A stretch of 64,000 nucleotides of DNA from Alphaproteobacteria bacterium PA4 (lineage in GTDB: Bacteria; Pseudomonadota; Alphaproteobacteria; Sphingomonadales; Sphingomonadaceae): contig NKIQ01000018.1 of the NCBI GenBank assembly GCA_002256005.1, forward strand, positions 1 through 64,000, given 5' to 3'. The first letter of the stretch is position 1. Each line of letters begins with the position of its first letter. The notes under the pieces were generated by a model. It saw only the letters and a list, made by a program, of their open reading frames with translations, did not search any database and was not told the origin of the DNA. Made by a program: the position numbers and the translations under genes. Positions 4,277 to 42,897 of the stretch are shown here, piece after piece.

Positions 4277-5254
4277 ATGGCGCACCCGATGCTTGTTGCC
4301 GATGTCAGCGGCGATTTCGCCAGCGCCGTGCGCGCCGGCCTCGCCCAGGCGCAAAAGGTCATTCCGGCCCGTTTCTTCTATGATCGCGCCGGATCGGAGC
4401 TGTTCGAGGACATCACCCGCCTGGCCGAATATTATCCCACCCGCACCGAAATCGGCCTGCTCACCGCCCATGCCGCGGCGCTGGCCGCCGCTGTCGGCCC
4501 CGGCCGGGCCGTGATCGAATTCGGCTCCGGCTCCTCGGCCAAGACGCCGCTGCTGCTCGGCGCGATCCGGCCCGGCGCCTATGTGCCCGTCGATATCTCG
4601 GCGGCCTTTCTCGCTGAATCGGCGGCGGCATTGGGCGCGCGCTTTCCCGGCCTGCCGGTGCTGCCGGTGGCCGCGGATTTCACCCAGGACTTCCGCGTGC
4701 CGGCGGCGATCATGGGCATGCAGCGGCTGGGCTTCTTCCCCGGCTCGACACTCGGCAATCTGGCGCCGGTGGCGGCGGTCGACCTGTTGCGCCGCTTTGC
4801 CAGCGTGCTCGGCGCCGGCAGCGCGCTCATCATCGGGCTGGACCTGGCGCCGGGGCCGGGCAAGAGCGTTGCGGAGCTGGAAGCCGCCTATGACGATGCG
4901 GCCGGCGTGACCGCGGCCTTCAATCTCAACCTGCTCCACCGCATCAATCGCGAGCTGGGCGGCGACATCGAAACCGATGCCTTTGCCCATCGTGCGCTAT
5001 GGAACCCCGACCTAGGCCGCATCGAGATGCACCTGGTGGCGCGCCGCGCACTGGTGTTCAGCGCCGCCGGTCGCCAGTTCGCCATGGCCGCCGGCGAGAC
5101 CATCCACACCGAGAACAGCTACAAGTGGATGCTCGCCGAGGCCCGCATGCTGGCCATGGCCAGCGGCTGGGCGCCAGTGAACAGCTGGACCGACGCCGAC
5201 GGACGCTTCAGCCTCAACCTCTGGCAGCGCGACGATGCCCGCATGCAGCCGTGA
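4277..5254 (+). CDS. egtD: L-histidine N(alpha)-methyltransferase EgtD
   Basis: EgtD trimethylates histidine with S-adenosylmethionine to give hercynine, the substrate of EgtB. The 325-residue protein shows the family N-terminus (KVIPARFFYDRAGSELFE, residues 27-44), the SAM-binding loop VIEFGSGSSAKT (79-90), FFPGSTLGN, and the C-terminal ENSYKW segment. The ATG at 4277 lies 2 bases after the egtB stop; the same frame is open further upstream inside egtB, but those residues are not family-like. Length is normal (about 320). Together with egtB it is enough for the core ergothioneine route apart from the final lyase. Confidence 0.93.
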   Translation: MAHPMLVADVSGDFASAVRAGLAQAQKVIPARFFYDRAGSELFEDITRLAEYYPTRTEIGLLTAHAAALAAAVGPGRAVIEFGSGSSAKTPLLLGAIRPGAYVPVDISAAFLAESAAALGARFPGLPVLPVAADFTQDFRVPAAIMGMQRLGFFPGSTLGNLAPVAAVDLLRRFASVLGAGSALIIGLDLAPGPGKSVAELEAAYDDAAGVTAAFNLNLLHRINRELGGDIETDAFAHRALWNPDLGRIEMHLVARRALVFSAAGRQFAMAAGETIHTENSYKWMLAEARMLAMASGWAPVNSWTDADGRFSLNLWQRDDARMQP

Positions 5255-39000: not shown

Positions 39001-39972
39001 ATGAGCGGGGATGATGCGCGCTGGATGGGCGCGGCGCTGGCGCTGTCTGATCGCGGTGTCGGGCGCACCGGGCTGAATCCGCCGGTCGGCTGTGTGCTCG
39101 TCGCTGATGGCCGCGTCGTCGGGCGCGGCTGGACCCAGCCCGGCGGCCGCCCGCATGCCGAGGCGATGGCGCTGGCGGCGGCCGGTGACAAGGCACGGGG
39201 CGCCACCGCCTATGTGACGCTGGAACCCTGCGCGCATGAAAGCGCGCGCGGCCCGGCCTGTGCCGAAACCCTGGTCGCTGCCGGTATCGCCCGCGTCGTC
39301 GTGGCAGCGACCGATCCCGATCCGCGCACCGATGGCCGCGGCATCGCCCGGCTGCGCGCCGCCGACATCGCCGTGACCAGCGGTGTGCGCGCCGATGAAG
39401 CGCAGACGGTGATGGCCGGCTTCTTCAGCCGGTTGCAGCGCGGCCGGCCGTGCGTGACGCTGAAGCTGGCGGTGTCGCTGGATGGCAGCGTCGCCATGGC
39501 GTCGGGCCAGAGCAAATGGATCACCGGCGAGCGCGCCCGCGCCCATGCCCATCTCGAACGCGCCCGCGCCGATCTGATCATCGTCGGCCGCGGCACGCTC
39601 GATGCCGACAATCCGCGCCTCGATGTGCGGCTGGTGGGCCTCGAAGATCGCTCGCCCGCAATGGCGGTGATGAGCGCTGCCGATGTGGCGGTGCCGGACG
39701 GCCGCCACATCGCCAATCCGGCAGCGCTGGCGGCGCTGACCGACACCAATCTCGTGCTGGCCGAAGGCGGCGCCGGCCTCGCCACCAGCCTCATCGCCGC
39801 CGATCTGGTTGATCGCCTGCTGCTCTATCGCGCGCCGATCCTGATCGGGGGCCGGCCGGCGCTGTCGGCCATCGGCCTCGGCGACCTGGCCAACGCTCAT
39901 GGCCGCTGGCGCGCCGCGCCGATCATCGATCTCGGCCCCGACCGGCTTGAGACCTACCACCGCATCCGATAG
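39001..39972 (+). CDS. ribD: Bifunctional riboflavin deaminase/reductase RibD
   Basis: RibD deaminates the pyrimidine formed by GTP cyclohydrolase II and then reduces it. The 323-residue protein has the deaminase zinc site HAE (52-54) with PCAH (C77) and C87, and a C-terminal reductase domain (VTLKLAVSLDGSVAMASGQSKWIT, LIIVGRGTLDADNPRL, LVLAEGGAGLATSL). It is slightly shorter than the typical ~360 residues because the reductase part is compact. ribE follows after 10 bases. Confidence 0.95.
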   Translation: MSGDDARWMGAALALSDRGVGRTGLNPPVGCVLVADGRVVGRGWTQPGGRPHAEAMALAAAGDKARGATAYVTLEPCAHESARGPACAETLVAAGIARVVVAATDPDPRTDGRGIARLRAADIAVTSGVRADEAQTVMAGFFSRLQRGRPCVTLKLAVSLDGSVAMASGQSKWITGERARAHAHLERARADLIIVGRGTLDADNPRLDVRLVGLEDRSPAMAVMSAADVAVPDGRHIANPAALAALTDTNLVLAEGGAGLATSLIAADLVDRLLLYRAPILIGGRPALSAIGLGDLANAHGRWRAAPIIDLGPDRLETYHRIR

Positions 39973-39982
39973 GGCAGTCCCC

Positions 39983-40585
39983 ATGTTTACCGGCATCATC
40001 ACCGACATCGGCCATATCAAGCGGGTGGAGCCGCGCGGCGACCTGCGCATCGTCATCGCCACCGGCTATGACACGGCCGGCCTGGCGCTGGGCGCGTCGG
40101 TCGCCTGTTCCGGTGTCTGCCTGACCGTCGTTGCCAAGGCGCCGGGCGAATTCAGCGTCGATGTCTCGGGCGAAACGCAAAGCCGCACCGCCGCCGGGCA
40201 ATGGACCGCCGGTCGTCGCCTCAACCTCGAACGCGCGCTGAAGGTCGGCGACGAACTCGGCGGCCATATCGTCACCGGCCATGTCGATGCCGTCGGCCGC
40301 ATCGAAAGCGTCGAGCCGGTCGGCGATTCGACCCGCATTACTATCCAGGTACCGCGCGACATCGCGCCGTTCGTCGCTCCCAAGGGCTCGATCTGCCTCG
40401 ACGGCGTGTCGCTGACGGTCAACACGGTGACCGACACCGATGACGGCGCGCGCTTCACCATCAACATCATCCCGCACACGGCGAGCTGGACGACGTTCGA
40501 CACCGCAAAGCCCGGCGACGAGATCAACATCGAGATCGACGTGCTGGCGCGCTATCTGGCGCGGATGAAGCAGGCACTCGCCTGA
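39983..40585 (+). CDS. ribE: Riboflavin synthase alpha chain
   Basis: The 200-residue protein has two lumazine-binding repeats: MFTGIITDIGHI...SVACSGVCLTV and GGHIVTGHVDAVGRI...GSICLDGVSLTVN. It dismutates two molecules of dimethylribityllumazine to riboflavin. The ATG at 39983 starts the canonical MFTGII; longer forms are not family-like. It is followed by 59 bases holding two palindromes and then ribB. Confidence 0.96.
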   Translation: MFTGIITDIGHIKRVEPRGDLRIVIATGYDTAGLALGASVACSGVCLTVVAKAPGEFSVDVSGETQSRTAAGQWTAGRRLNLERALKVGDELGGHIVTGHVDAVGRIESVEPVGDSTRITIQVPRDIAPFVAPKGSICLDGVSLTVNTVTDTDDGARFTINIIPHTASWTTFDTAKPGDEINIEIDVLARYLARMKQALA

Positions 40586-40588
40586 GTC

Positions 40589-40634
40589 TTGACATTCGAA
40601 TGTGAAAGACAGATTGGTTATCACATCATAATGT
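40589..40634 (+). promoter_or_regulatory. Twin dyads ACAT-N4-ATGT with TTGACA hexamer upstream of ribB
   Basis: TTGACA (40589-40594) overlaps the first dyad ACATTCGAATGT (40592-40603). A second dyad, ACATCATAATGT, flanked as TC..GA, lies at 40623-40634. The centres are 31 bp apart, close to three helical turns. CATAAT within the second dyad could serve as a -10 but not with this TTGACA (32 bases away). The arrangement looks like an operator pair for a dimeric repressor controlling an internal ribB promoter. Confidence 0.6.
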
Positions 40635-40644
40635 GAGACTGCCG

Positions 40645-41943
40645 ATGACCATCAGCATCACCGACCGCCTGCGCGCCCTGGTTGCCGACGGCAGCGAGAC
40701 CAAATCCGGCATTGCCCGCGCCGCCGGGCTGCATGCCAATTCGCTGCGCAATCTTGACGATGCCGACTGGAACCCGACCAGCGACACGCTGAAGAAGCTG
40801 GAGGCCTGGCTGCGCGATCGCGCCACCGGCCCGGCGCTGGCCAGCGTGCAGGAGATCATCAACGAGGCCAAGAACGGCCGCATGTTCATCCTCGTTGATG
40901 ACGAAGACCGCGAGAATGAGGGCGACCTGGTCATCCCCGCCCAGATGGCAACGCCCGACGCCATCAACTTCATGGCCCGCCACGGCCGCGGCCTCATCTG
41001 CCTGACGCTGGCATCGGACCGGGTGCGGGCGCTCGGCCTGCCGCTGATGGCGCAGCACAACGGCACCCGCCACGCCACCGCCTTCACCGTGTCGATCGAG
41101 GCGCGCGAGGGCGTCACGACGGGCATTTCGGCCGCCGACCGCGCCCGCACCATCGCCGTCGCCGTCGATGCGTCCAAGGGCCCGGAGCATATCGTCTCCC
41201 CCGGCCATGTCTTCCCACTCGTCGCCCGCGATGGTGGCGTGCTGGTCCGCGCCGGGCATACCGAGGCGTCGGTCGATGTCGCGCGGCTGGCCGGGCTCAA
41301 CCCCTCCGGCGTCATCTGCGAGATCATGAACGACGATGGCGAGATGATGCGCCTGCCGGAACTGATCGTCTTTGCCCGTCAGCATGGCCTGAAAATCGGC
41401 ACCATCCAGGATCTGATCGCCTATCGCCATGCCCATGACCGGCTGGTCAAGCTGATCGCCGAAACCGAGATTGACAGCTGGCACGGCGGCCGCTGGCAGG
41501 CCAAGACCTATGCCAACACCGCCGAATATGGCGAGCATATGGTGCTGCAGAAGGGCAAGGTCGAACCCGGCAAGCCGACGCTCGTCCGCGTCCACACCCA
41601 GTCGATGTTCAGCGACCTGTTCCACGAGGCCAATGACCGCGCCGGGCAATTGACCCGCGCCATGGACGTGATCGGCGCGGAAGGCGCCGGCGTCATCGTC
41701 ATCATCCGCGATTCCTCGCCCACCGCCATCTCGACGCAGATGAAGGCCAAGGGCGAAGGCCAACCGTTCCAGCTGCGCGATTATGGCATCGGCGCCCAGA
41801 TCCTCAGCGACCTCGGCGTGTCCGACATGATCCTGCTGACCAACCAGCACAGGAACATCATCGGCATCCAGGGCTATGGCCTGAATGTCGTCGGCGAACG
41901 CGCCATCCCGCCGCATCCTGCCATGCGCGCCGAGGCCGCCTGA
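40645..41943 (+). CDS. ribB: HTH-fused 3,4-dihydroxy-2-butanone 4-phosphate synthase with degenerate GTP cyclohydrolase II domain
   Basis: The 432-residue protein has three parts. Residues 1-58 resemble a lambda-repressor-like helix-turn-helix (GSETKSGIARAAGLHANSL, then NPTSDTLKKLEAWL). Residues ~66-265 are a complete DHBP synthase (FILVDDEDRENEGDL with acidic metal ligands at 85-94, ARHGRGLICLTL, HTEASVD). The last ~165 residues follow the RibA fold but lack the zinc cysteines: where GTP cyclohydrolase II has C...C.C, this reads HTQSMFSDLFHEAND. The protein therefore should make only DHBP (RibBX type). ATG at 40645 is preferred over a GTG four codons upstream. Two dyads lie just upstream. 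Confidence 0.93.
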   Translation: MTISITDRLRALVADGSETKSGIARAAGLHANSLRNLDDADWNPTSDTLKKLEAWLRDRATGPALASVQEIINEAKNGRMFILVDDEDRENEGDLVIPAQMATPDAINFMARHGRGLICLTLASDRVRALGLPLMAQHNGTRHATAFTVSIEAREGVTTGISAADRARTIAVAVDASKGPEHIVSPGHVFPLVARDGGVLVRAGHTEASVDVARLAGLNPSGVICEIMNDDGEMMRLPELIVFARQHGLKIGTIQDLIAYRHAHDRLVKLIAETEIDSWHGGRWQAKTYANTAEYGEHMVLQKGKVEPGKPTLVRVHTQSMFSDLFHEANDRAGQLTRAMDVIGAEGAGVIVIIRDSSPTAISTQMKAKGEGQPFQLRDYGIGAQILSDLGVSDMILLTNQHRNIIGIQGYGLNVVGERAIPPHPAMRAEAA

Positions 41944-41947
41944 GGCC

Positions 41948-42481
41948 ATGGCGCTGCGCAGCGGCGTGGACGAGGCCGCGACCCCGAAATATGCCCATGT
42001 CGAACGCGAACGACGCTGGCTGGTCGCGTTGGACCGACTGCCGACGCTGACCGGGCAGCGGCATGTGCTGATCGAGGATCGCTATATCGACAATACGGCC
42101 TTGCGCCTGCGCCGCATGACGGACAGCACAAGCAACGCCGTGGCGTTGAAGCTGACCAAGAAATATGCGCATGCCGACACCCGCGCCCGACCGATCGTCA
42201 CCGCCTATCTGGACGCGAACGAATATGCCGTGTTTACCGCACTGCCCGCCCACGCTCTCGTCAAGCGCCGCTTTCCCATTGCCGATGGCGGCGTGACCTT
42301 CAGTGTCGACCAGTTCCTCGGCCCGCTCGCCGGCCTGATCCTGGCCGAACGCGAGGCCGTTGACGCCGACAGCCTTATCGCGCTGCCGACGCCCGTCTGG
42401 GCCTTGCGTGAGGTTACAGACGACCCCCAATTTGCCGGTGGTACCCTTGCCACACACGGCCTTCCGGAGACCCTGCCATGA
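41948..42481 (+). CDS. CYTH-domain protein (triphosphate tunnel-like)
   Basis: A 177-residue protein with the CYTH signature [10 protein letters not shown] (an ExExR/K strand), followed by [13 protein letters not shown] and [10 protein letters not shown] and ending in [11 protein letters not shown], the alternating charged strands of a triphosphate tunnel. Relatives hydrolyse tripolyphosphate or nucleoside triphosphates. It starts 4 bases after ribB and overlaps ribH by 4 bases, so it is firmly inside the riboflavin operon. Its role there is unknown. Confidence 0.82.
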
Positions 42482-42897
42482 CGCACATCCTCATCGTCGA
42501 AGCGCGCTTTTACACCCATATCGCCGACATGGCGCTCGACGGCGTCAAGGCCGCGCTCGCCGCCGCCGGTGCCACCCATGACATCATCACCGTGCCGGGC
42601 GCGCTGGAAGTGCCGGCGGCCATCGCCTTTGCCGATGCCTCCGGCGCCTATGACGGCTATGTCGCGCTCGGCTGCGTCATCCGCGGCGAAACCTATCATT
42701 TCGAGGTTGTCGCCGGCGAAAGCGCTCGCGCCATCATGGCGCTGACCCTCGACGGCCTTGCCATCGGCAACGGCATCCTGACCGTCGAGAATGAAGCCCA
42801 GGCCCTCGCTCGCGCCGACCGCGCGCAAAAGGACAAGGGCGGTGAAGCAGCAAAGGCGGCGCTGGCGATGGTGGCACTGAAGGCGAAATTCGCTTGA
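42478..42897 (+). CDS. ribH: 6,7-dimethyl-8-ribityllumazine synthase
   Basis: RibH condenses DHBP with the ribitylamino-uracil to give the riboflavin synthase substrate. The 139-residue protein shows [15 protein letters not shown], the [14 protein letters not shown] loop and [18 protein letters not shown] with the catalytic histidine. It overlaps the CYTH gene (ATGA) and ends the operon; the next gene points the other way. Confidence 0.95.

Follow-up and report, generated by a model that had tools for sequence, protein, structure and literature searches.

A predicted phage-Cro-type head and its candidate operators on RibBX, a probable self-repressing enzyme of riboflavin synthesis in Sphingomonadaceae

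The window analyzed in the current work, a stretch of 64,000 nucleotides from Alphaproteobacteria bacterium PA4 (Sphingomonadaceae), contains a riboflavin gene cluster in which a DHBP synthase carries an additional N-terminal domain of helix-turn-helix (HTH) appearance and is preceded by two inverted repeats. This raises the question of whether the enzyme binds DNA in front of its own gene and, if so, what such binding would accomplish. We consider, with a probability of roughly 0.8, that a phage-Cro-type module, composed of the N-terminal head and the operators, makes this RibBX protein a self-repressing ‘trigger enzyme’.

The protein and its gene cluster

The open reading frame (ORF) in question (40645-41943, forward strand, as are all genes of the cluster mentioned below) specifies 432 residues arranged in three domains: a lambda-repressor-like (XRE/Cro) HTH domain (40645..40836; residues 1-64, assigned by family profile and model), a DHBP synthase (RibB) domain (40849..41424; residues 69-260, assigned by Pfam) and a GTP-cyclohydrolase-II-like X domain (41458..41898; residues 272-418) from which the zinc cysteines are gone. 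Upstream are located ribD (39001..39972; Pfam RibD_C and deaminase) and then ribE (39983..40585; riboflavin synthase, Pfam Lum_binding), the latter being directly 5’ of ribBX, from whose start it is separated by 59 bases. Downstream, an ORF of 177 residues (41948..42481), which has no Pfam match at E 0.001 and which by eye we take to be CYTH-like, separates ribBX from ribH (42478..42897; lumazine synthase, Pfam DMRL_synthase).

The DHBP synthase domain is complete, including the acidic motif DDEDRENEGD (residues 85-94), which is invariant across 91 relatives with the exception of E87 (kept in 90% or more). In the X domain, comparison with the genome’s own RibA places S, N and R at positions 320, 330 and 332 instead of the zinc cysteines, while a separate RibA in which these cysteines are intact is encoded by the source genome (G000:C27:15316-15798, E 1.7e-61). 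The first-pass annotation had described a complete DHBP synthase with an N-terminal HTH, followed by a RibA-like domain without zinc cysteines, and both descriptions hold. The combination of RibB, a zinc-less X domain and a separate RibA therefore identifies the window protein as RibBX with an additional head. The HTH-less RibBX relatives are also without these zinc cysteines, so that the dead X domain is, as judged from their sequences, no peculiarity of proteins with the HTH.

Taken alone, the head of the window protein falls below every Pfam cut-off. Its family profile matches DdrO, SinR, CylR2 and HipB (E 0.0013-0.05), which are of the XRE or lambda-repressor-like type; the fold matches are of intermediate quality, and in the model the recognition segment does not form a helix. 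By profile, and more weakly by predicted fold, the head of approximately 60 residues is thus placed among the lambda-repressor-like (XRE) HTHs, which is how the comparison of the first 60 residues with HTH folds, proposed in the first-pass annotation, turned out. An enzyme domain (Pfam) and a predicted DNA-binding domain (family profile) are united in one polypeptide. The recognition-helix region of this head reads G28-L-H-A-N-S-L-R35, of which G28, L29, H30, N32, L34 and R35 are kept in 99 of 99 head-bearing loci.

Candidate operators and their distribution

Two unstranded dyads precede the window gene: a distal candidate operator TGACATTCGAATGTGA (TGACAT-n4-ATGTGA; 40590..40605), agreeing with TCACATnnnnATGTGA at 11/12 positions, and a proximal candidate operator TCACATCATAATGTGA (TCACAT-n4-ATGTGA; 40621..40636), agreeing at 12/12. 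They are spaced by 31 bp, and the proximal one extends from base −24 to base −9 relative to the ATG, with its centre 16.5 bp before this codon. A search of the whole 3.0 Mb genome with TNACATNNNNATGTNA retrieved two sites, both being the window dyads. The hexamer TTGACA at 40589-40594 overlaps the distal operator, an arrangement also present in the genus of the window, and a sigma-70 consensus scan of the window gave no promoter between ribE and ribBX. A leaderless transcript with a TTG −35 element before the proximal operator was considered and set aside: it is suggested by relatives, in which TTG precedes and TA follows the proximal dyad at a distance permitting a very short leader, and the consensus scan of the window gives none.

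Being inverted repeats situated directly before a start codon, the dyads could in principle act as RNA hairpins (an attenuator or translational control) rather than as DNA sites. Their arms, however, are short (6 bp) and AT-rich, no terminator-like site was found, no Rfam family reaches the gathering score at the dyads (the FMN riboswitch RF00050 included), and the dyads occur together with the HTH protein and have counterparts of altered sequence in phages (see below), making such an explanation extremely improbable. Control by an FMN riboswitch was likewise rejected, RF00050 being found neither in the window at gathering score nor in the family genomes (0/119), the latter under strict filters that may miss weak matches, in a search for which 7 of 14 control genomes were positive.

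The operator pattern drawn from the window was then tested in relatives, using a family sample of 119 Sphingomonadaceae genomes which includes the source genome. Among the loci fetched, 88 genomes have an HTH-ribB locus (the RibB frame appears interrupted in two of these, G007 and G114) and 27 have HTH-less RibBX only, the remainder consisting of two genomes with weak, unfetched matches only and two with none; nine second HTH-less copies bring the comparison to 88 versus 36 loci, weaker second matches being excluded. At least 10 of 12 operator positions are present within 150 bp upstream in 87/88 HTH-ribB loci, as opposed to 0/36 HTH-less loci, the single exception (L141) having a best upstream operator of 9/12. 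The first-pass annotation had asked whether dyads occur before ribB in fusion-bearing relatives, and its proposal of a self-regulating enzyme gains strong support from this comparison of sequences. In an extended set, to which species-collection loci were added (the best 80 of 590 candidates, with at least two duplicating family loci), the same upstream score is attained by 98/99 HTH loci and by 0/105 HTH-less loci, and by 6 of 1,980 shuffled upstream regions.

When presence of the head is mapped on a tree of 146 RibB cores, 13 changes are required. Well-supported branches force at least five of these, and all five independent pairs on such branches agree on head and operator (p 0.06 alone). 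Because five pairs alone cannot reach 0.05, the weight of the association comes mostly from conservation of the site through many genera, and not from independent gains or losses. Across 64 aligned proximal sites, which were picked at at least 10/12, conservation amounts to 96-100% at the CACA and TGTG positions, and the n4 spacer is variable. The second operator is less conserved: in 38 of 83 loci the proximal site has a partner of at least 9/12 located 24-40 bp farther upstream; in 13 of 83 no site of at least 9/12 occurs at the usual proximal place, and most of these have one farther upstream.

The distance to ribE also differs between the two forms. In 23/36 HTH-less loci ribE and ribB are separated by −17 to +31 bp (ribE not found in 13/36), whereas in HTH-bearing loci the distance is at least 40 bp in 30/88 and ribE is absent from the upstream region searched (no more than 900 bp and frequently about 600) in 58/88; the head therefore comes with its own upstream region. 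Six family genomes (L201-L206) encode, besides the HTH form, a second and more distant HTH-less RibBX with 51-56% core identity.

When all 119 family genomes were searched for TCACATNNNNATGTGA, 50 sites were retrieved in 48 genomes, 46 of which are located no more than 150 bp before the start of an HTH-ribB gene, and the reversed control gave none. The other four are found in a prophage of genome G017, next to a terminase gene in an element of G101, within an ORF of G104 and, without a clear target, in G103. A wider regulon was rejected on this count, which covers exact sites only.

The same figures bear on the possibility that the dyads are operators of another regulator, for example of CRP/FNR type, the HTH head being a relic or serving some other purpose. 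Binding of the dyads by the head is a prediction from sequence, and the half-sites ATGTGA and TCACAT resemble pieces of CRP sites; their order, on the other hand, is the reverse of that in the CRP consensus. An independent regulator is further opposed by the absence of the operator before all 36 HTH-less ribB genes, by the concentration of 46/50 exact sites at HTH-ribB, by the invariance of the recognition residues over 99 loci and by the prophage relatives described below, so that we regard it as very unlikely.

Prophage relatives of the head

Small standalone relatives of the head were found in two Sphingomonadaceae loci (L209 and L210), where they are divergently oriented from a CI-like repressor with a Peptidase_S24 domain (Pfam). 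Both genes also occur in IMG/VR viral contigs, and a phage integrase gene is present in the surroundings of L209. A third relative is located in phage Pan3 beside a protein which, by eye, is CI-like. This Cro-like gene for 62 residues (L216:3001-3189; Pseudanabaena phage Pan3, ON968454) is missing from the gene table of the record, where Pan3_49 and Pan3_50 are annotated on the other strand. In all three cases the centre of the proximal dyad is 21 bp before the ATG, and in most HTH-ribB loci it is about 20 bp before the start. The L209 element, which is the G017 prophage, contains two RibB-type operator pairs (1873-1919 and 4652-4698), each with 31-bp spacing, one preceding cro and the other being some 2.8 kb away. 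These two pairs recall left and right operators. In G017, the host of this element, the two RibBX copies read have no head.

On these sequences the head shares homology with repressors that occupy the Cro position in prophages and have a similar two-operator layout, a point absent from the first-pass annotation. The window protein is not itself a phage Cro: its gene has no neighbouring divergent CI repressor and is flanked by ribE and by the ribH side of the cluster, whereas such a repressor is found beside the homologues L209 and L210 (Pfam) and, by eye, L216 and L220.

Recognition helices and half-sites, sorted by eye from seven cases, fall into four classes. The helix GLH[AP]N[ST]LR pairs with the half-site ATGTGA (the standalone L209 protein having GLHPNTLR), IH[HR]NTL[LN]G with ATATGC (L210 and phage Pan3), DTTLR with ATGCG (L220, L230 and L257) and SEGILRG with ATTGCG (L231). 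For L257 the half-sites are a by-eye reading, and the score of its Cro dyad is reached in 276 of 300 shuffles. An eighth standalone relative, L229 (helix ITTLRN), has the dyad ATGCACTCAGGTGCAT (ATGCAC-n4-GTGCAT), which is outside all four classes. This joint change of helix and half-site provides the chief reason for assigning recognition of the dyads to the head itself and, together with dyads at the same place before the prophage heads, it speaks against binding by a separate regulator. That the head binds the predicted operators can thus be strongly inferred from these sequence comparisons.

Among viral contigs, the two-operator layout pattern gave no match, no relative of the Pan3 Cro was confirmed, and a search with the L230 Cro returned its own contig only. 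In genome G101, three RibB-type operators (12, 11 and 11 of 12 positions, two of them overlapping) are located before a phage terminase large-subunit gene (L306:11185-11315, G101:C21), and the RibB-borne head is the only head of its class found in that genome.

Among the loci read, all RibB-fused heads are in the Sphingomonadaceae sample or carry a sphingomonad title. Outside this family, no RibB fusion was found among head matches in the genes of the six genomes read (from the order, G406, G414, G432, G449 and G476 of 15; from the class, G392 of 6). A tree of 61 columns gives no resolution of the direction of transfer, with the three nearest Cros falling on the RibB side; the relatives in the wider set are proteins in the position of Cro, which suggests a phage-to-host transfer of the head.

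In another Sphingomonadales family, a Cro-like head of the same kind is N-terminal to CoaBC (Flavoprotein and DFP domains), an enzyme of CoA biosynthesis, in 2 of 29 genomes (L258:211-1683 in G432 and L259:199-1680 in G476). No convincing operator was found before these two genes, the best dyad scores being attained by 104 and by 37 out of 300 shuffles, respectively. One might speculate that Cro-type repressors of temperate phages were recruited repeatedly to serve essential cofactor enzymes as reading heads, namely RibBX in most of the Sphingomonadaceae sampled and CoaBC in the two genomes just mentioned. The enzyme would thereby become a repressor of its own gene that responds to metabolites, in a family for which the search for FMN riboswitches gave no match. 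Since some mobile elements still bear the same operator, HTH-RibBX might in addition act on promoters of phages and thus bias the course of an infection; we consider this extended scenario unlikely.

Proposed mechanism and relation to known systems

The self-repressing enzyme proposed here would operate as follows. RibB is dimeric, and one RibBX dimer would offer two heads to each dyad; two dimers would be placed on the same face of the DNA, 31 bp or about three turns apart, and would block transcription of ribBX and then of the 177-residue ORF and ribH. Through such a block the amount of enzyme would limit its own synthesis. From the distribution and position of the operators we infer that HTH-RibBX represses its own gene, and turning its own production down is the most likely outcome. 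Less firmly, the enzyme or X domain might alter the affinity for DNA together with substrate, product or flavin, thereby providing feedback in a family that yielded no FMN riboswitch; sensing of a flavin or GTP-derived ligand by the dead domain had been put forward in the first-pass annotation.

Lambda Cro works without a ligand, and the head could equally bind its operators as plain autogenous control of enzyme amount, devoid of ligand sensing. The X domain exists with the same losses in proteins without the HTH, and so did not arise for HTH regulation. Residues R315, H317, D324 and R378 of this domain are kept in 86/86 aligned HTH loci, which might be taken to favour ligand sensing, but HTH-less loci keep them almost as well, so that this conservation says nothing on sensing. 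For Shewanella RibBX, on the other hand, the X domain is reported in the accessible part of PMC10012899 to control the activity of RibB in a manner that is not understood, and a ligand-dependent signal is therefore possible. Control of enzyme amount without a ligand is accordingly a serious contender, to which we assign slightly less than even odds.

In the open-licence literature, as represented by titles and abstract beginnings, no description of an HTH-RibB protein was found among the matches listed, and the term ‘helix-turn-helix’ is absent from the review PMC12542839. Nor was a description of sphingomonad control of riboflavin supply found in the portion of the open-licence literature accessible to us. 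The present finding names a probable regulator, its operators and its likely contact residues. If true, a vitamin enzyme bearing a phage-type repressor head would be added to the few trigger enzymes known, and a head of this type together with a matching operator layout would serve a housekeeping enzyme. The prophage relatives are then natural specificity variants connecting recognition-helix residues to half-sites.

With the Cro/CI repressors of temperate phages, the window protein shares a homologous head and a similarly placed proximal dyad (21 bp before the ATG in L209, L210 and Pan3); it differs in that its head is fused to a metabolic enzyme within a rib cluster. Archaeal RbkR is an HTH fused to riboflavin kinase, and hence also to an enzyme of the riboflavin pathway, although the kinase acts at a later step, and the protein is archaeal and has another HTH type. 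The name RbkR appears in the accessible part of PMC10746257. With RibBX of Shewanella, Acinetobacter, Aeromonas and Bradyrhizobium, the window protein has in common RibB, a zinc-less X domain and a separate RibA (PMC10012899, accessible part). The A. baumannii protein (6mnz) is its best PDB match by sequence and ranks second among the entries when the full model is compared by fold. The accessible part of PMC10012899 mentions no N-terminal HTH, whereas the window protein possesses a head of 60 residues and candidate operators. Finally, the trigger enzymes BirA, NadR and PutA likewise combine an enzyme with a DNA-binding domain (predicted in our case) directed at genes of their own pathway, as described in the accessible parts of PMC8249747 and PMC5343134; the window protein differs from them in being another enzyme, of another pathway, with a Cro-type head.
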